A stretch of DNA of 6,300 nt from Oscillospiraceae bacterium. GTDB taxonomy: Bacteria; Bacillota_A; Clostridia; Saccharofermentanales; Saccharofermentanaceae. Below are positions 1-6,300 of this stretch, piece after piece. Every line of letters starts with the position of its first letter. Position 1 is the first letter of the stretch. Position numbers and translations under genes: made by a program. The stretch covers positions 1-6,300 of the forward strand of contig CADCPU010000255.1 of NCBI GenBank assembly GCA_902803365.1. Reading direction: 5' to 3'. Below the pieces are notes generated by a model. It searched no databases. It was not told where the DNA came from and was given only the letters and a program-made list of their open reading frames with translations.

Positions 1-3
1 AGA

Positions 4-1086
4 TCAGAGAAGGTCTTCTCTTCCCTCTTCCTTAAGCTTATCAACCATGAGCTTAACGTCCTGTGCCTTGTCCTTCGAGCATACCATGATGGTGTCCTCA
101 GTCTGGACGATGACAAGATTCTCAACTCCGATCGTAGTGATGAGCTTGTCGTTTGACTTGTTGAAAACAAGGCAGTTCTTCGTATTGATGCCCATGTGAT
201 CACCGACGGAAACGTTGCCTTCTTCGTTCTGAGGAAGTACCGTGCTCAATACATCCCAGGATCCGACGTCGTTCCAACCGAACTCAGCAGGGATACAGTA
301 AACGTCCGAAGCCTTCTCCATGATGCCGTAGTCGACGGAGATCTTCTCGAGCTCAGGATATACGCGTGCGATAGCCTCAGCTTCTTTAGGTGTTCTCAAG
401 TCATCGAAAATAGCTTCCATCTTCGCATATGTATCAGGGAGATATTCCTTGAACGCATCGAGGATAACTGATGCCTTCCAGATGAACATACCGGAGTTCC
501 AAAGATACTTACCGGAATTGATGTACTCGCGTGCAACCGGCTCGGTTGGCTTTTCGACAAAACGTCTGAGGTGATAGACCTCGCCGCCCTGCTCGACAGG
601 GTTGGTTGAGAAACGGATATAGCCGTAACCCGTTGACGGGAATGTAGGCCAGATACCGATCGTTACGATCTTGTCTGTCTCTTCAGCCGTCTTGAATGCA
701 AGATCCAATACTCTCTTATACTCCTTGATATCGGAGATGTGGTGGTCTGCGGCAAGAACAGCCATAAGGGCGTCGCCGTAGAGTTTCTTCAATGTCATTG
801 CCGCATAGATGATGCAAGGTGCGGTATTTCTCTGGACAGGTTCGATCAGGATGTGGTCTCTGTTTACTTCCTTGTAGAGGACCTTGTCCATAAGCTCTGC
901 CTGCTTGGCATTAGTTACGATAAATGTGTCTTCACGTCCGACGACACCTTCGTAATGCTTGATCGTCTCGTTGATCATAACGTCGTCGCCCGTGAGCTTA
1001 ACGAGCTGCTTTGGAGTTGTCATCCTGGATACAGGCCAGAAACGTGTTCCTCCGCCGCCTGCCATTATTACTGCTGTTTTTTTCAT
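4..1086 (-). CDS. manC: Mannose-1-phosphate guanylyltransferase (GDP-mannose pyrophosphorylase), monofunctional
   Basis: Predicted to make GDP-mannose from mannose-1-phosphate and GTP in the cytoplasm, supplying mannosyl (or GDP-fucose/GDP-rhamnose-derived) units for a surface glycan. Seen in the 360-aa product: the nucleotidyltransferase signature GGGGTRFWPVSR at residues 10-21 followed by PKQ at 25-27; EPVQRNTAP at 82-90; AADHHI at 112-117, whose Asp114 is the expected metal ligand; FVEKP at 176-180, whose Lys179 is the usual sugar-phosphate contact; NSGMF at 197-201; and FGWNDVGSW at 269-277. The length fits the nucleotidyltransferase plus a short C-terminal beta region. It lacks the extra cupin-type phosphomannose isomerase domain of the ~480-aa bifunctional AlgA/ManC enzymes. 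The ATG is preceded on the minus strand by GAGGA (1093-1097) with 6-nt spacing. It is transcribed away from the HAD gene at 1181 and lies in the same orientation as the glycosyltransferase operon, but on a separate transcript. Family assignment is very secure; the final glycan is unknown. Confidence 0.95.
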   Translation of the reverse strand: MKKTAVIMAGGGGTRFWPVSRMTTPKQLVKLTGDDVMINETIKHYEGVVGREDTFIVTNAKQAELMDKVLYKEVNRDHILIEPVQRNTAPCIIYAAMTLKKLYGDALMAVLAADHHISDIKEYKRVLDLAFKTAEETDKIVTIGIWPTFPSTGYGYIRFSTNPVEQGGEVYHLRRFVEKPTEPVAREYINSGKYLWNSGMFIWKASVILDAFKEYLPDTYAKMEAIFDDLRTPKEAEAIARVYPELEKISVDYGIMEKASDVYCIPAEFGWNDVGSWDVLSTVLPQNEEGNVSVGDHMGINTKNCLVFNKSNDKLITTIGVENLVIVQTEDTIMVCSKDKAQDVKLMVDKLKEEGREDLL

Positions 1087-1114
1087 GTTAGTTCCTCGAT
1101 ATAGATCTGATTCA

Positions 1115-1128
1115 CCGCAACTTTGCGG
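1115..1128. promoter_or_regulatory. Short palindrome between the divergent promoters (possible operator or 5' leader hairpin)
   Basis: CCGCAA and TTGCGG form a 6-bp inverted repeat separated by 2 nt. It lies just downstream of the predicted manC start site, so in the manC leader it could form a hairpin with five Watson-Crick pairs and a 4-nt loop, extended by an outer G-U pair. As DNA it occupies the -35 position of the HAD promoter, so a bound regulator could affect both genes. A palindrome this short can occur by chance. Confidence 0.3.
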
Positions 1129-1134
1129 CTTGTA

Positions 1135-1143
1135 TGCTATTAT
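1135..1143 (+). promoter_or_regulatory. Extended -10 promoter for the HAD phosphatase gene
   Basis: The plus strand reads TGCTATTAT: a TGn extension followed by the hexamer TATTAT (1138-1143), one mismatch from TATAAT. There is no recognisable -35 at 16-18 nt spacing, which is tolerated by extended -10 promoters. The predicted start is near 1150, about 31 nt before the ATG at 1181. It uses the same AT-rich bases as the manC -10 on the other strand. Confidence 0.45.
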
Positions 1144-1144
1144 A
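1139..1144 (-). promoter_or_regulatory. -10 element of the manC promoter
   Basis: Reading the minus strand, this is a perfect consensus TATAAT. The predicted start of transcription is near 1131-1132, giving a leader of about 45 nt to the manC ATG. The -35 region is poor: TTTCAT (1161-1166, minus strand) sits 16 nt upstream and matches TTGACA only weakly. The element overlaps the plus-strand -10 of the HAD gene almost completely. Called from sequence alone. Confidence 0.55.
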
Positions 1145-1180
1145 CCCTAATAGAACGATAATGAAACTTCTGAGGTTGTT

Positions 1181-2002
1181 ATGGAATATAAATTTTTGGT
1201 TGCGACGGATATCGACAATACGCTCCTCATTACGGGAACTGACGTAAGCGCGGAGAACAGAAGAGCCATCAAGGCTATCGAAGACGCAGGCGGTGCCTTT
1301 ACTCTCGCGACCGGCAGGAGCTTCTATCTCATAGGCAAATACGCGGAGGATCTAAAGCTCACCGTTCCCTGCATCGTAAGTAACGGAGGCGGACTTGCGG
1401 ACCCTGTCGCAAACAAAGAGATCAAGTCTTATATCATCGATAAGGCTCTCGTAAGAGAACTGATGCTGATGCTCTGGGAGCGCAAGATAAACTTCGCGGG
1501 CTACTCGTCCGAGGGCGTGTTCTTCGCTCCGACCAGCGACCGCAGGGAGTTTTTTGAAAACTACAACAGGACTGCGCCCGAAGGAAGGAAAGCCGTCCTG
1601 TGCGACCTCACACTTGATATGATACAAAGCGGTAATATGCCCGCATTTAATAAGATACTGACTGTTGAGGCTGATCCCGATACATGCCGCGAGCTAAGAG
1701 CCAGGAAGGATATCTCATGCTGTGCATCGACTGCGACTTTCCTGGATATCATGGCACCGGGTGCGACAAAGGGCAGAGCACTCCTTGACCTCGCTGACCT
1801 TCTCGGGGTAAGCAGAGACATGACTTTCGCGCTCGGTGATAACGAGAACGATATAGAGATGCTGAGAGATGCCAAGTACGGCATAGCAATGGGCAACGCT
1901 ACTGAGGAGACCAAGGCAGCCTGCGATTACGTAACGGCTGACTGTAAGGATGACGGATTCGCGAAGGCCGTGTTCGACATCATCTTGCCGAAGATCGGTT
2001 GA
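1181..2002 (+). CDS. HAD-superfamily phosphatase, Cof/subclass IIB type
   Basis: Predicted cytoplasmic Mg2+-dependent phosphatase acting on a small phosphorylated metabolite, often a sugar phosphate in this family. All four HAD motifs are present in the 273-aa product. Motif I is ATDIDNTL, with nucleophile Asp10 and acid/base Asp12. Motif II is TLATGR, with Thr44. Motif III is ATKGRAL, with Lys197. Motif IV is LGDNENDIEML at 218-228, with Asp220 and Asp224. The ~150-residue insert between motifs II and III is the type IIB cap. Length is typical of Cof-like proteins (~270 aa). Motif I has Asn13 where Gly is usual (DxDGT). The start is supported by GAGG at 1172-1175 with 5-nt spacing. It is the only plus-strand gene here. 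It is divergent from manC and convergent with the glycosyltransferase operon, overlapping the last gene by 23 bp. A role in mannose or sugar-phosphate metabolism is only suggested by location; it could be an unrelated housekeeping phosphatase. Confidence 0.9.
   Translation: MEYKFLVATDIDNTLLITGTDVSAENRRAIKAIEDAGGAFTLATGRSFYLIGKYAEDLKLTVPCIVSNGGGLADPVANKEIKSYIIDKALVRELMLMLWERKINFAGYSSEGVFFAPTSDRREFFENYNRTAPEGRKAVLCDLTLDMIQSGNMPAFNKILTVEADPDTCRELRARKDISCCASTATFLDIMAPGATKGRALLDLADLLGVSRDMTFALGDNENDIEMLRDAKYGIAMGNATEETKAACDYVTADCKDDGFAKAVFDIILPKIG
1980..2002. other. 23-bp tail-to-tail overlap of the glycosyltransferase operon and the HAD gene
   Basis: The minus-strand TGA (1980-1982) lies inside the HAD coding sequence, and the plus-strand TGA (2000-2002) lies inside the glycosyltransferase coding sequence. 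No GC-rich hairpin with a T-tract is visible on either strand around the junction, so both transcripts probably continue into antisense of the opposing gene. Confidence 0.8.
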
Positions 2003-3182
2003 TGACCTTCTGGCACAGTTCCGTATAACCTCTGACGATCTCTTTCCAACTGTAGTTCTCGTCTACATACTTGATGCCGTTTTGTCCCATGGCGGAAACA
2101 GTTGCCGCGTTTGACGGATCCAGGAGCCAGTTGAGCTCGCCTTCGAATTCGAAGAAGTTTCTGTAGTAGAATCCCGCGTCGCTTCTCTTTACGTGACCTT
2201 CAAGGACATCGCAGTTGCCGTTTACGAGTACAGGCTTACCAAGTGCCATCGCCTCGAGTACGACGATCGACAGGCTCTCGAATCTTGAAGGAAGGACGAG
2301 GAAGCGGGATGCCGCGATACCGGAGAACTTGTCTTCCTCGGACACGAATCCCAGAGATATGATATCGTCGCGCTTCGGAACTTCGATGACTTCCTTGCCC
2401 ATGAGAACGAGCTTGGTCTTGGAGTCCGGATTGCGCTTCTTATATTCTGCGAAGTAATCGAAAAGTATATTGCAGCACTTATTCTCATCTATCCTTCCGA
2501 CATAGATAAAGAAATCATCAACGCCGAACTTTTGCTTGAAGCCTTCGGGATCGATCTTGGAAGGAAGCTCGATACCTACGCCGCCGCGGCCGTCGTTATC
2601 AGGCTTGCCCGTAACGTCGAAAAGGTCGTTCGTAAGTTCCTTCTCTTCAACGGTGTTGTAGTAGAATGCCGCAGGATAAGAGAACATCTTGTTGAATATA
2701 TCAAGGTAGATCGGCGCTTCGTCGTGAGCGGTCGGGATAAGGATAGCCTTGTCCTTTACGCGCGGCAGACCGAAGTATGTCGAATAGTAAAGATAGCATA
2801 CGAAGATGAAGCAATCATAGTCGTCCTTTACGGATTCGACGAAGTCAGCCAGAGCTGGCGAATTCGGTCCCTGCTGACGCATCCACTCTTCCTGCTCTTC
2901 AACTGTTGAAGGACTCGTCAGGATGCGTGCGGAGAGCTTATTGAAGCTTGCCGTATCGCGCTCTTTTATTACAGGGAATCTGTAGACATGAACACCGTTT
3001 ATGTCTTCTTCATCCTTCTCGTATTCGTTCTTCCATGTGACATAGTCGACGGCCTTGGTGGTGATGCAGCTGACATCGTGGCCTCCGATGGATGCCATAT
3101 GCTCGGCAACCTGACGGGCGTATGCTTCCGCACCGCCGTTTACTTCAGTACCGTATCTTTGAACTACAAAACATAATCTCAT
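1980..3182 (-). CDS. GT4-family glycosyltransferase (400 aa), paralogue of the 403-aa enzyme at 5023-6234
   Basis: Predicted retaining glycosyltransferase of the GT-B fold, adding a sugar from a nucleotide-sugar donor to a growing glycan on the cytoplasmic side of the membrane. The N-terminal domain begins with a beta strand and the loop VNGGAEAYARQ (14-24), typical of the acceptor half. The donor half contains YVGRIDENK (227-235; Arg230 and Lys235 are the usual phosphate contacts) and the EX7E motif, Glu302-Glu310, in RFESLSIVVLEAMALGKPVL. NSPAL (107-111), AHDEAPIYLDIF (152-163), AEYKKRN (245-251) and FFEFEGEL (343-350) are shared with the paralogue at 5023. It is the last gene of the operon. 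Its ATG overlaps the TGA of the preceding gene (ATGA, 3179-3182), with only a weak GGTGA as ribosome site, so translation is probably coupled. Its 3' end overlaps the opposing HAD gene by 23 bp. Donor sugar and linkage cannot be told from sequence. Confidence 0.9.
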   Translation of the reverse strand: MRLCFVVQRYGTEVNGGAEAYARQVAEHMASIGGHDVSCITTKAVDYVTWKNEYEKDEEDINGVHVYRFPVIKERDTASFNKLSARILTSPSTVEEQEEWMRQQGPNSPALADFVESVKDDYDCFIFVCYLYYSTYFGLPRVKDKAILIPTAHDEAPIYLDIFNKMFSYPAAFYYNTVEEKELTNDLFDVTGKPDNDGRGGVGIELPSKIDPEGFKQKFGVDDFFIYVGRIDENKCCNILFDYFAEYKKRNPDSKTKLVLMGKEVIEVPKRDDIISLGFVSEEDKFSGIAASRFLVLPSRFESLSIVVLEAMALGKPVLVNGNCDVLEGHVKRSDAGFYYRNFFEFEGELNWLLDPSNAATVSAMGQNGIKYVDENYSWKEIVRGYTELCQKVINRSSAR

Positions 3183-4261
3183 ATCGCTTCACCACGCATA
3201 AATCTGTTGAGCTGCTCCATGAAGAGAGCTGAGATGCTCTCGTAGGAGAAGTCCTTAAGTCTTTCTCTCTGACCCTTCAGGATATCTTCCTTGAGTGACT
3301 CGTTATGAAGGATCTCGTGAAGGCAATATGCTGCCTTCTTCGGATCGCTGTCTTCAAGGAGAATTCCCGTGCCGCCCAGTGTATCCGGGACTGCGGCATA
3401 AGGAGCTGCGACTATCGGCTTATCAAAGCACATTGCCTCGACGAGCGGAACGCAGAATCCTTCGTGTTCGCTCATGCAAAGGAACGCATCGCAGGTCTTA
3501 TAGTAAGCAAGGATCGCCTTGAAGGATACCTGACCCGTAAATATCACGTTATCAAGCTCCATGAGCTCGGCATAGTCCTTAAGTCTCTTGTCGTAGTTTT
3601 CGGTTCCCGTGCTCGATCCTACGAGGATGAGCCTGATTCTCTCATCGAACATCTTGTTGTAGCAATAGAGGACCTTCAGAAGATCTTCCTGCTTCTTGTT
3701 CGGAGCGATACGTCCTACGAAGACGACGTTCTTAACTCCGTCGCTCATCTTGGAGACAACTTCGGGATCGGGTTCCTTCTTGTAGTCATCAAAAGGGATC
3801 AGGATCGGACGCACGGCCATCGGACATGTATAGCCCATCTGACGAAGTTCGTCCATGTTGTATTTGGAATCGCACATACATGCATCAAAGGTCGAGTTTA
3901 AGTTCTTTACTTCCCTCCTGCCCTTTGAGCACAGTCTTGCCGTAATTCCGGAATAAGCGGAGAAGTACTTGGAAGGCGTGATGTTATGGTAGATCATGAG
4001 CTTTCTGCCCTTGAAGTTCTTGATCTGCCTGTTAAGCTCGGAACCCGTAGACAGATGGTAGATGATGATGTCGTCATCGTTCAGGACAGGGAGCTGATTT
4101 ATGCCCTTGACGCCCGGCTCGTTTTCGAGACGCTTATCAAGGTTTTCCGCGTAGGTAACGACCTTATGCCCCTGAGAGTTCAGGAGCTTCATGATGGCAA
4201 GCGCGTCATTACTGACCGCATCGCCGAATGACAGAGTTGTCAGCAGTTGGATCATCTTCAT
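3179..4261 (-). CDS. GT4-family glycosyltransferase (360 aa)
   Basis: Predicted retaining GT-B glycosyltransferase, of a different subgroup from the two ~400-aa enzymes in this operon. The N-terminal domain carries YHLSTGSELN (68-77) and LMIYHNITP (88-96; His92), a pattern common in mannosyl- and rhamnosyl-transferase-like members, though not diagnostic. The donor domain has VVFVGRIAPNKKQEDLL (179-195; Arg184 and Lys189) and the EX7E motif, Glu267-Glu275, in SEHEGFCVPLVEAM, followed by the usual KPIVAA (281-286). It starts inside the preceding coiled-coil gene (ATGA overlap, 4258-4261). A GGAGA site (4269-4273, minus) is 7 nt upstream; a second ATG two codons in is a less well spaced alternative. 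No signal peptide or clear membrane span is seen, so it is probably cytoplasmic or peripheral. With ManC in the neighbourhood, GDP-mannose is a plausible donor, but this is inference. Confidence 0.9.
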   Translation of the reverse strand: MKMIQLLTTLSFGDAVSNDALAIMKLLNSQGHKVVTYAENLDKRLENEPGVKGINQLPVLNDDDIIIYHLSTGSELNRQIKNFKGRKLMIYHNITPSKYFSAYSGITARLCSKGRREVKNLNSTFDACMCDSKYNMDELRQMGYTCPMAVRPILIPFDDYKKEPDPEVVSKMSDGVKNVVFVGRIAPNKKQEDLLKVLYCYNKMFDERIRLILVGSSTGTENYDKRLKDYAELMELDNVIFTGQVSFKAILAYYKTCDAFLCMSEHEGFCVPLVEAMCFDKPIVAAPYAAVPDTLGGTGILLEDSDPKKAAYCLHEILHNESLKEDILKGQRERLKDFSYESISALFMEQLNRFMRGEAI

Positions 4262-4629
4262 TTGCCGGTCTCCAATTCTATCAGTTTGGCTTCAAGGTCT
4301 GTTATCCTTCTTCTCAACCTGTCGCGCTCCTTGTTGAGCTCATAGAGTTCATCAAGTGCAGTCGTGAAATTGCTGTCGATATTATTCTGCGCGCAGACGA
4401 TCGGGTCGATCAGGAAAGCCATAAACTTTCGAACGATCCTGCCCTTCTTGTCGAGCGCGTTATATGATGTGCCTCGGTTCTTCTTGATATAGAACATGCA
4501 CTGTCTTAAGTTTCTGGAACTGCCGCCGCCCAGGTATGTGAGCTTTACGGACTCGAAGTCAGGGACGTCAAAGTCCTTGCCGCCTGTAAATGCGTCATAT
4601 CCTTTTTTCAAGATCTCGGAAGAATTCAT
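4258..4629 (-). CDS. Small coiled-coil protein of the glycosyltransferase operon (123 aa), paralogue of the next gene upstream
   Basis: Not recognised as a named family; no catalytic motif is visible. Three parts can be seen. Residues 1-60 are mixed and probably partly ordered, with a GGGSS turn at 34-38. Next comes a basic/hydrophobic helix, roughly 62-82, containing RKFMAFLIDPIV and then QN. The C-terminal coiled coil runs from about 88 to 120, with heptad core positions L95, L98, R102, L105, I109, L112, L116 and L119, and dense Glu/Arg on the other faces. From residue 63 to its end it aligns without gaps to residues 75-135 of the 137-aa protein encoded just upstream (17 of 61 identical by hand count). 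Translation is supported by AGGAAGG (4637-4643, minus) 7 nt before the ATG, and ATGA overlaps join it to both neighbours. Likely a scaffold, anchor or partner for the glycosyltransferases; function inferred only. Confidence 0.82.
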   Translation of the reverse strand: MNSSEILKKGYDAFTGGKDFDVPDFESVKLTYLGGGSSRNLRQCMFYIKKNRGTSYNALDKKGRIVRKFMAFLIDPIVCAQNNIDSNFTTALDELYELNKERDRLRRRITDLEAKLIELETGK

Positions 4630-5039
4630 CTTGCTGCCTTCCTCTCAAGTTCGCTGATGCGCTTTTCGAGAAGATCGGCGCGCTTTTTGAGATCCTCGTT
4701 GTCATTCTTAACATCAACGATCGTCTCGGAGATCCTGTAATAGTAATAGTTGAGCGTGTTCTGCTGTCTTACGATCGGCAGGATGAAAAATCCCGTGACC
4801 TTTCTTATGCAGCGCTTGAAGAATACTGCGATCTTATTTCCGCGCAGCACCTCATAAGGCTGCACTTCGTAATTGCAGGAGATATAATCGACGGCCTCTT
4901 CGAGGTCGTTGTTCGTCTTGCCCTTGTCTTCGGCCGCTTCAAGATCGATGAAGTTCAGCGGTTCCTTGTCCCTGCCGTTCTTCACGATGTCCTCGCGGAT
5001 CTTGCTCATGATACTTTCAACATCAACTGTCTTTTCCAT
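4626..5039 (-). CDS. Small coiled-coil protein of the glycosyltransferase operon (137 aa)
   Basis: Not recognised as a named family. The N-terminus, VDVESIMSKIREDIVKNG (5-22), is an amphipathic helix. Similar helices are remembered at the start of polysaccharide-cluster methyltransferases and glycosyltransferases (from memory, not searched). Residues 23-60 are acidic and probably flexible. Residues 66-97 contain RGNKIAVFF, KRCIRKVTGFFILPIV and QQN, a basic then hydrophobic helix that could lie on the membrane but is too short and charged for a confident transmembrane span. The C-terminus is a coiled coil with core positions I107, V110, N114, L117, A121, L124, I128 and L131; the core Asn is typical of dimeric coils. 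The ATG has the best ribosome site in the operon, GGAGG with 6-nt spacing, located inside the preceding glycosyltransferase gene, which it overlaps by 17 bp. Probably forms a pair with the 123-aa protein that follows. Confidence 0.85.
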   Translation of the reverse strand: MEKTVDVESIMSKIREDIVKNGRDKEPLNFIDLEAAEDKGKTNNDLEEAVDYISCNYEVQPYEVLRGNKIAVFFKRCIRKVTGFFILPIVRQQNTLNYYYYRISETIVDVKNDNEDLKKRADLLEKRISELERKAAR

Positions 5040-6234
5040 TCAAAGCCTCCGAACACAACTTGAAAAATTCCATATACCTGCTGACGACAACGTCCCATGC
5101 AAAGTTCTCCGTAACCGCCTTCTGTCCCAGAAGTCCCATCGTATCCGCAGTCTCGGGATTACGTGAGATATAGTCGACGCAGCCTTCAAACTCGAAGTAT
5201 GTCTTAAAGTAAAGACCGCCTCCGAAGTCCGTGACGAACCTCTGCGTGACCTTACAATCCTCATGCACGAGAACGGGGCGCCTGTTGATCCAGCTCTCCA
5301 TTATTACGAGCGAGAAACTCTCGTTCTTGGAAGGCTGGCACAGGAGGAGCGAAGCCGCCTGCGCGTCGTATTTATCCTGAAGGTCCACGAAGCCGAGATC
5401 CCTGATATCGCCCGAATCGACATATTCGCGCGGCAAGTCGATATTACCTCCGCCGATCAAAACGAGCTTAAGGTCCGTTCCGTTTCTCTTCTTATATTCA
5501 ACAAAGTAATTGACCAGCGTGTGGACATTCTTGCCCTCGTCCTTACGTCCCGCATAGAGGATAAATGGTTCGTTTATCTTAAACTTCTCCCTGAACCTCT
5601 GCGCGTCACCCGTGCCGTTGATGTCAACGCCAACACCGATCGTCTTTTTATGAACGCGCGAAAGATCGAATATCGATCCTGCGAGTTCCTCCTCCGGGCG
5701 GGCATTAAATACCATTCCCGCGAGAGACTCAAAAGGCTGTTTAAGGATATCCATATAGGCATATGCCTCATCGTGAAGGCACGGGATCAGGACTGACATC
5801 TCAGGAGCTACCTTGATGCCGTTTACTGTCGTGCCGAACATGTACGGGATAAATACAAAGAGCGAATATTCGTCTTTGTGTGCTGCCATATATTCATAGA
5901 GAGCCGGGCTGTTTACCATCTCGCGGATGAAGGTCTCCTGATCTTCGGGCTTGATCCTCTTGCCGCGCATGAGCATGGAGTTAACGCGGTCGAATGCCGC
6001 AACGTCCCTCTTCCTGACCTTAAAGCGCATGACTTCGATGCCGCCTTCAACGGTCAGACCTTCCTTGTGGTAGTTCTCGTTCCAGTCGCTGTCGAACTGC
6101 TTTACGCAGGTCGTGAGTATGCGAAGATCAACCCCTGCATCCTTAAGATGCGAGGTAAGTCCGCGAAGCTCCATCTCGGCTCCGCCCGGAATCTTCTCAC
6201 CGTACCACGGAACGACAAAACCCAACTTCTTCAT
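5023..6234 (-). CDS. GT4-family glycosyltransferase (403 aa)
   Basis: Predicted retaining GT-B glycosyltransferase of the polysaccharide operon. The N-terminal domain starts LGFVVPWYGEKIPGGAEMEL (4-23), with the GGAE loop typical of GT4 acceptor domains. The donor half has LYAGRKDEGKN (226-236; Arg230 and Lys235) and the EX7E motif, Glu305-Glu313, in KNESFSLVIMESW. A Trp-containing ESW replaces the usual EAM after the motif, but both glutamates are intact. It shares NSPAL (108-112), LHDEAYAYMDIL (153-164), VEYKKRN (245-251) and YFEFEG (346-351) with the 400-aa enzyme at 1980-3182, at nearly the same residue numbers, so the two are paralogues. The ATG is 1 nt after the TAA of the upstream gene and has no good Shine-Dalgarno, which points to coupled re-initiation. 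Its end overlaps the 137-aa coiled-coil gene by 17 bp. Donor and acceptor are unknown. Confidence 0.9.
   Translation of the reverse strand: MKKLGFVVPWYGEKIPGGAEMELRGLTSHLKDAGVDLRILTTCVKQFDSDWNENYHKEGLTVEGGIEVMRFKVRKRDVAAFDRVNSMLMRGKRIKPEDQETFIREMVNSPALYEYMAAHKDEYSLFVFIPYMFGTTVNGIKVAPEMSVLIPCLHDEAYAYMDILKQPFESLAGMVFNARPEEELAGSIFDLSRVHKKTIGVGVDINGTGDAQRFREKFKINEPFILYAGRKDEGKNVHTLVNYFVEYKKRNGTDLKLVLIGGGNIDLPREYVDSGDIRDLGFVDLQDKYDAQAASLLLCQPSKNESFSLVIMESWINRRPVLVHEDCKVTQRFVTDFGGGLYFKTYFEFEGCVDYISRNPETADTMGLLGQKAVTENFAWDVVVSRYMEFFKLCSEALNGKDS
5046..5050 (-). promoter_or_regulatory. Strong ribosome binding site for the 137-aa coiled-coil gene, inside the upstream CDS
   Basis: The minus strand reads GGAGG, 6 nt before the ATG at 5039, within the last codons of the 403-aa glycosyltransferase. 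It is the strongest Shine-Dalgarno sequence among the operon genes and settles the start of the coiled-coil gene despite the 17-bp overlap. It suggests that this protein is translated at a higher rate than the enzymes around it. Confidence 0.75.
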
Positions 6235-6235
6235 A

Positions 6236-6300
6236 TTACTTGCCTATTACTTCTTCGATCCTTGATATATATGCCTTGGCAATGACCTTCCAGTCGAAGA
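6236..6300 (-). CDS. C-terminal end of another glycosyltransferase (partial, runs off the right edge)
   Basis: On the minus strand one frame from the right edge reads FDWKVIAKAYISRIEEVIGK and then stops at TAA (6236-6238), 1 nt before the ATG of the next gene. This has the layout of a GT4 C-terminal helix: compare YSWKEIVRGYTELCQKVI (377-394) at the end of the 400-aa enzyme and FAWDVVVSRYMEFF (378-391) at the end of the 403-aa enzyme. The other two minus-strand frames give no such match. Only about 20 codons are visible, so the assignment rests on this similarity and on the operon position. Confidence 0.7.
   Translation of the reverse strand, partial: FDWKVIAKAYISRIEEVIGK

Follow-up and report, generated by a model that had tools for sequence, protein, structure and literature searches.

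Two small proteins in a row of glycosyltransferases

What is the function of two small proteins that lack a recognizable enzyme domain and are encoded in the middle of a row of glycosyltransferase (GT) genes? The question is raised by a stretch of 6,300 nucleotides from an Oscillospiraceae bacterium (GenBank assembly GCA_902803365.1, contig CADCPU010000255.1, positions 1 to 6,300; hereafter the window), in which two genes stand in tandem:

4626..5039, minus strand, P1 (137 aa), open reading frame coordinates
4258..4629, minus strand, P2 (123 aa), open reading frame coordinates

On balance, we favor the view that P1 and P2 are stand-alone, catalytically empty forms of an N-terminal module that other Bacillota fuse to a methyltransferase, and that they act as a membrane-side coiled-coil scaffold for polymerizing GTs, in a noncatalytic role like that of WbdD.

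The two proteins are diverged paralogs

An earlier note on this DNA had read P1 and P2 as products of a duplication, based on an ungapped alignment of residues 75-135 of P1 with 63-123 of P2. Its hand count of 17 identities in 61 positions is exact. The alignment has a BLOSUM62 score of 71, compared to a shuffle mean of -50 (standard deviation, 17), and this score was matched in 0 of 20,000 plain and 0 of 20,000 heptad-class shuffles; a single BLASTP comparison of the two proteins gives an E value of 2e-7. P1 is made up of an N-terminal IMxxIR helix, a DKxPLSF-like segment, NYEVQPY, a basic/hydrophobic helix carrying RK..F.ILPIV.QQN.LN, and about four coiled-coil heptads. P2 is a diverged paralog with the same RK..F...PIV..QN motif and a coiled coil, preceded by a shorter N-terminal part.

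It could be argued that the likeness is nothing more than the similarity that coiled coils share in general. MreC coils do reach E values of 4e-4 to 7e-3 with the P1/P2 profile in whole-genome searches, and the 7 identities in 37 positions of the coil part alone were equaled in 5 of 20,000 shuffles. However, the non-coil motif by itself contains 10 identities in 24 positions, as many as in 0 of 20,000 shuffles, while profiles of the two families (15 P1 and 11 P2 sequences) align over 109 columns with a probability of 98.5% and an E value of 3.4e-15. In addition, P1 aligns over its whole length with the methyltransferase module described below. With these results, we find the explanation hardly credible. 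Since the profile alignment covers 109 columns, the N-terminal parts also align, weakly; the description of them as different captures their divergence, and they are not plainly unrelated.

No catalytic function is apparent. The earlier note had seen no catalytic residues in either protein, and P1 and P2 are without an enzyme domain, in that Pfam and NCBIfam give no enzyme family above cut-off. Matches to DivIC, JAKMIP, Pox_A_type_inc, and others were below cut-off, mostly in the coil, and were set aside. At an E value of 0.01, each Pfam model matched at most one of the 19 module sequences (best, 0.0014), and NCBIfam had no match to the stand-alone modules that were scanned (P1 and P2 of the window, best 0.13; those of loci L069 and L074; L and G numbers designate loci and genomes).

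The heptad register that had been proposed for the pair is the best of the seven in both families. Its eight core positions are hydrophobic in 84% of cases on average in P1 (29 sequences; 27% elsewhere) and 81% in P2 (30 sequences; 30% elsewhere). Individual positions fit less well: residues 110 of P1 and 102 of P2 are hydrophobic in just 17%, and residue 98 of P2 in 53%. In AlphaFold monomers, motif and coil form one long helix, spanning model residues 68-135 in P1 and 60-121 in P2 (the models start without the first Met, such that the model number plus 1 is the protein number). The helix of the motif is predicted to be basic and amphipathic, with a hydrophobic moment of 0.64 in P1 and 0.54 in P2, values computed without a control.

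A module shared with coiled-coil methyltransferases

Other Bacillota encode S-adenosylmethionine (SAM) methyltransferases that carry a similar region at their N terminus, in frames of about 390-530 residues from stop to stop, that of L052 being longer. A profile built from P1 sequences only aligns over its positions 2-134 with residues 21-154 of the methyltransferase frame of L070 (best-domain E value, 1.6e-14; database size set to 1000 for module profiles against fused methyltransferases). The same profile finds the fused proteins of L072 and L073 at 1e-11 and 1.3e-10, compared to 0.024-0.069 for MreC decoys. The methyltransferase domain after the coil was assigned by Pfam where scanned and elsewhere by phmmer to the L002 protein. 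The region appears to be a domain that occurs on methyltransferases of several Bacillota groups and that no Pfam model covers.

Gene position leads in the same direction. Samples of 188, 391, 398, 30, and 146 genomes yielded 12 fused loci among genomes that lack the pair, and in 10 of these (L070, L072, L073, L084, L086, L087, and L089-L092) the fused gene comes directly after Wzt. As for the other two, Wzm/Wzt lie about 7 kb from the fused gene in L052 and are absent from the 19.5 kb of L088. Homologs of the three GT4-like glycosyltransferases of the window (GTa, GTb, and GTc, listed below) are found downstream of the fused gene in L070, L072, and L092. Single stand-alone modules also occur directly after Wzt, in L069, L074, and L093; this count excludes L071 and L085, which extend beyond the ends of their contigs. 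A plasmid search with the fused methyltransferase of L092 returned seven records that matched the methyltransferase part alone, and one with P1 returned no match.

Because the P1 profile aligns with the N terminus of these methyltransferases and the fused genes follow wzt, P1 and P2 look like scaffolds of putative chain terminators from which the enzyme is missing. The structural, WbdD-like role that had been suggested for them is thereby backed, since P1 is homologous to the N terminus of coiled-coil methyltransferases whose genes are mostly adjacent to Wzt. P2 owes its place in the module family mainly to its homology with P1, since its own match is weak.

Conservation of the pair in related genomes

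In a large protein database, 27 homologs of P1 and 6 of P2 were found at an E value of 0.01, and a scan of named genomes gave six loci, all in metagenome-assembled genomes (MAGs) of Clostridia. Our main survey covered 188 genomes from one Clostridia order, that of one of the six loci. Matches at an E value of 0.01 were obtained in 41 genomes: 29 with P1 and P2 in tandem, two (G102 and G103) with two P1-like genes, one (G130) with a single such gene, one (G167) with a methyltransferase fusion, and eight others. Among the eight, four weak matches were scanned and are MreC (G145, G146, G151, and G159), two (G160 and G162) are MreC-like by eye, and two (G073 and G150) were left unassigned; a match in G304 also looks like MreC by eye. 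A stand-alone module is therefore found in 32 of 188 genomes, and in 29 of the 32 the tandem P1-P2 precedes the same GT4-like gene. This bears out the expectation that the two genes co-occur beside GT4 genes, and no strong match away from polysaccharide loci was found within the 188 genomes. Even the P1-like proteins of G102, G103, and G130, which have no P2 ortholog, are encoded beside the same GTs.

In a tree of 75 modules (without L004, L033, the P1 of L005, and the cut P1 of L051), P2 sequences make up one side of a branch (28 rows; support, 100/98) and P1 orthologs another group (27 rows; 100/99). Duplication followed by divergence is thus upheld, and the matching subclades of P1 and P2 indicate one old duplication with joint inheritance since. 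The two copies of G102 and G103 form a group of their own (98/92), apparently from a separate duplication.

These patterns bear on whether P1 and P2 could be functionless, degenerate remnants of a former methyltransferase. They are without the enzyme part, half-length GT remnants show that decay takes place in this locus, and the P1 copy of L005 has an in-frame stop. Nevertheless, 29 of the 32 genomes that encode any stand-alone module retain both genes at their site, 26 columns are invariant across 15 P1 sequences, and two deep clades have been maintained side by side. We regard decay as very improbable. The L005 copy (L005:9992-10390) comes from a MAG, and its stop codon may reflect a broken gene or an assembly error.

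Gene order and the partners of the module

The other features of the window are as follows:

6236..6298, minus strand, C terminus of a gene upstream of GTa, ending FDWKVIAKAYISRIEEVIGK
5023..6234, minus strand, GTa, GT4-like glycosyltransferase upstream of P1 (Pfam Glycos_transf_1)
3179..4261, minus strand, GTb, GT4-like glycosyltransferase downstream of P2 (Pfam and gene order of relatives)
1980..3182, minus strand, GTc, GT4-like glycosyltransferase (Pfam and gene order of relatives)
1181-2002, strand opposite to the rest of the row, Cof-type HAD hydrolase between GTc and ManC
4..1086, minus strand, ManC-like mannose-1-phosphate guanylyltransferase for GDP-mannose supply (Pfam NTP_transferase and ManC_GMP_beta-helix)

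The minus-strand row thus reads GTa, P1, P2, GTb, and GTc, followed by the HAD gene on the other strand and ManC, whose protein matches TIGR01479 at a score under the family cut-off. The stop of P1 and the start of P2 share 4 bases (ATGA, 4626..4629, minus strand), as do the ends of P2 and GTb (4258-4261) and of GTb and GTc (3179-3182), while GTa and P1 overlap by 17 bases (5023-5039). With overlaps of 4 or 17 bases, translational coupling is likely across GTa-P1-P2-GTb-GTc.

In relatives, the order P1-P2-GTb is found in 29 of 29 pair genomes, although the L006 contig holds just the first codons of GTb. The gene directly upstream of P1 is Wzt in 20 of the 29, GTa in five (L001-L005), and a half-length GT remnant in four. 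On long contigs, the gene order is Gmd-Rmd-Wzm-Wzt-(GT0-(methyltransferase)-(double GT))-(GTa)-P1-P2-GTb-GTc-HAD-ManC, with parentheses for genes that are not always present. In the clade of the window (L001-L005), P1 is preceded by GTa, not Wzt, and the window ends before any wzt.

This order allows for two other functions. First, P1 and P2 could be private partner subunits or chaperones, one per GT (P1 for GTa or GTc, P2 for GTb), that act separately and form homomeric coils. It would fit that P2 directly precedes GTb in each of the 29 pair genomes and that the codons of the two genes overlap in the window, as would the two P1-like genes of G102 and G103, each directly before its own GTb gene; in L048 and L049, from two genomes in which the module seems to have been duplicated separately, the order is Wzm-Wzt-P1like-GTb-P1like-GTb. 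A GT-like half domain in frame with P1 in L041 is also in favor. Yet P1 is retained in 20 pair genomes that have neither GTa nor a remnant upstream of it (that place only, GTa elsewhere being unsearched), and fused forms have one module beside three GTs. Furthermore, the same Q-N motif is common to P1, P2, and the coiled-coil methyltransferases, which points to a shared partner. We consider private partners unlikely.

Second, P1 and P2 might tune the exporter by binding Wzt/Wzm and coupling synthesis to export, with the GTs uninvolved. The gene immediately downstream of wzt does encode a module in 20 of 29 pair genomes, 10 of the 12 fused loci, and the three loci with a single stand-alone module. 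However, the clade of the window has other genes between wzt and P1, and the P1-like gene of G130 has GTs beside it but no Wzm/Wzt within the visible 12.4 kb. Exporter tuning seems less probable still.

Some additional features of these loci deserve mention. The diverged half-length GT remnants between Wzt and P1 (L028:9074-9700, L030:10019-10486, L039:2356-2967, and L041:9651-10730) resemble the C-terminal half of GTa or GTc. The likeness is weakest in L030 (22 residues; E value, 7e-5), and the remnant of L041 is in frame with P1 with no stop between them, a possible fusion. The Cof-type HAD hydrolase is present at the GTc/ManC junction in most loci whose contig reaches there. Several relatives encode a protein of about 250-260 aa, alike by eye, between GTc and the HAD gene (L002:13264-14016, L004:3965-4741, L005:13205-13987, and L042:6251-7033), and the L002 copy has no Pfam match.

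Export pathway and capping

The clusters of relatives contain Wzm/Wzt, and therefore point to export by an ATP-binding cassette (ABC) transporter. Gmd of L002 scores above the TIGR01472 cut-off, and the solved structure nearest to Rmd of L003 is a GDP-6-deoxy-D-lyxo-4-hexulose reductase (2pk3; E value, 1.6e-52), which we take to be the Aneurinibacillus enzyme. Given these two assignments, the donor in the relatives' clusters is probably GDP-D-rhamnose. All 10 Wzt tested have the carbohydrate-binding domain Wzt_C (seven are from pair genomes in which no clear methyltransferase was found, and one each is from G103, L069, and L070), as does the Wzt of L002. This pathway, together with the carbohydrate-binding domain of Wzt, was seen in relatives, outside the window.

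Whether the exported chain would be capped by a methyltransferase may vary. With a methyltransferase-domain profile at an E value of 1e-8, a strong match was obtained in 7 of the 32 genomes that encode stand-alone modules, including G001-G005, the nearest relatives of the window, along with G100 and G138; matches in G101 and G113 were weak (39 and 37 bits). The methyltransferases of G100 and G138 (L095:8789-9961 and L096:8599-9714) have coil-like N termini by eye and no detected P1 module, and are away from sugar clusters within the 19 kb seen. For the window organism, a separate methyltransferase may be expected from its relatives: the codons upstream of GTa, which end FDWKVIAKAYISRIEEVIGK, resemble the last codons of the double GT genes in L003 and L094 (20 residues, by eye), and so the organism may have the arrangement of L003, methyltransferase included.

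A clear methyltransferase copy is wanting in 22 of the 29 pair genomes, whose completeness is not stated and in which other types of cap are possible. In some systems that make no cap, Wzt lacks the binding domain. Here, the domain is kept in all seven Wzt tested from the 22 genomes. At L026 there are, in addition, genes for an initiating sugar transferase, a phosphomannomutase, a GT2, and two further GT4-like enzymes; ten proteins of this locus were scanned, with no methyltransferase among them. As a more tentative proposal, most of this Clostridia lineage would export a D-rhamnose glycan by the ABC route from a heteromeric scaffold and without a methyltransferase cap. Chain length would then be set by P1/P2 and the GTs, the Wzt domain would read a non-methyl signal, and two-module scaffolds would have arisen at least two times from a single-module ancestor.

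A proposed scaffold for polymerizing glycosyltransferases

The reading that we favor can be spelled out as a mechanism. Each module would comprise a docking segment, a basic amphipathic helix, and a coiled coil. The helix would lie on the cytoplasmic face of the membrane, while the coil would pair P1 with P2, most likely as a heteromer. The N-terminal segments would dock GTb, GTc, and, where present, GTa, gathering the GTs at the lipid-linked chain next to Wzm/Wzt, much as the noncatalytic end of WbdD recruits WbdA. The pathway would be ABC transporter dependent with probably a D-rhamnose glycan as its product, and in the close relatives of the window capping would probably occur in trans, by the separate coiled-coil methyltransferase.

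Several observations weigh against a scaffold of this kind. The match of P2 to the methyltransferase module is weak, with a whole-sequence E value of 2.7e-6 at best compared to 6e-4 for decoys, and covers motif and coil. Fused proteins from pair genomes are also weak against the P1 profile (L002, 1.6e-5; L005, 0.0014), and that of L003, at 0.092, does worse than decoys; when three of their N termini were compared as a profile, the probability was 91% with P1 (E value, 1.2e-6) and 85% with P2 (5.8e-6). In pair genomes, the fused gene does not adjoin Wzt. Instead, GT0 lies between them (G002, G003, and G005; in G004 on contig C79, L051), and in G001 the fused gene lies next to a double GT gene on a different contig. 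The module tree has few columns and long branches, which drew a program warning, and the sampled genomes include MAGs of unstated completeness. As for the heteromer, two of the eight core positions in the P1-P2 pair (110 of P1 and 102 of P2) are mostly polar, and the confidence of the AlphaFold monomers is low (mean pLDDT, 65 for P1 and 63 for P2). The count of e-g charges does not separate the pairings, with a mean of 2.8 for hetero and 2.3 and 1.2 for homo pairs, even if, for 19 of the 29 pairs, the hetero value is higher than the average of the homo values. Finally, the coil is short, and it is doubtful that it could act as a ruler without an enzyme at its far end. Because a ruler needs such an enzyme and P1/P2 are without one, we claim no molecular ruler for them.

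Comparison with known systems

The systems compared were WbdD of Escherichia coli O9a and O8, and the proteins of Klebsiella pneumoniae O3, O4 (ORF7), O7 (ORF6), and O12 (WbbB). In E. coli O9a, wbdD presumably follows wzt. WbdD has a noncatalytic part that recruits WbdA and a helical bundle that drives trimerization (PMC3482155), and in the Klebsiella systems the coiled-coil protein is termed a membrane-associated scaffold (PMC11231755). Like this set, the relatives of the window have an ABC transporter pathway with a carbohydrate-binding Wzt (PMC3482155, PMC11231755). The set has a membrane-associated amphipathic helix and a coiled coil, and heptads and a basic amphipathic helix are predicted for P1/P2; by analogy with the part that recruits the polymerase, P1/P2 may recruit GTs.

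The differences are also clear. For the Klebsiella and E. coli systems, PMC11231755 describes a coiled-coil protein whose far end bears the terminating enzyme "in all cases," whereas P1/P2 have no detected catalytic domain, are two proteins rather than one, and have a much shorter coil. The fused relatives run in the order module, coil, and methyltransferase, the reverse of WbdD. We reject membership in the WbdD family because P1/P2 are without a catalytic domain, be it methyltransferase, kinase, or GT. When the module profile was compared to the PDB, WbdD was not among the best 60 of 104 matches, all of coiled-coil type and over the coil end. A Wzz-type polysaccharide co-polymerase of a Wzy-dependent pathway is not supported either, with no Wzz match listed in Pfam or NCBIfam at E values up to 1 and with Wzm/Wzt carried by relatives.

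The closest likeness is to the coiled-coil SAM methyltransferases of Bacillota, with which P1 shares the N-terminal module from end to end in the best cases, mostly the gene position, and in several loci the GTs downstream. In contrast to them, P1/P2 end at the coil, with no methyltransferase domain after it. Among Gram-positive bacteria, the S-layer glycan of Geobacillus stearothermophilus (WsaE/WsaF, Wzm/Wzt) is an ABC-exported rhamnan and is methyl capped. It differs in its use of L-rhamnose from rml genes and in having the methyltransferase and two GT domains in one polypeptide, and the text consulted on it contains no mention of a stand-alone coiled-coil pair. For Gram-positive bacteria, an additional length factor has been suspected (PMC2943079).

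The working principle of such a scaffold is already known. A version that is duplicated, stands alone, and has no enzyme did not turn up in the literature searched, in that open-licence papers, screened by title or the start of the abstract, gave no description of enzyme-free members of the P1/P2 kind. Here, the scaffold part stands alone and is duplicated, and 29 genomes from a single Clostridia order have kept it, with the GTs of the fused form and mostly its gene position. If our reading is true, nature has separated scaffold from terminator, and thus the scaffold's share in chain length and export would become testable, in Gram-positive bacteria. A P1/P2 scaffold without a terminator would also make one ask what tells these bacteria that a sugar chain is complete.

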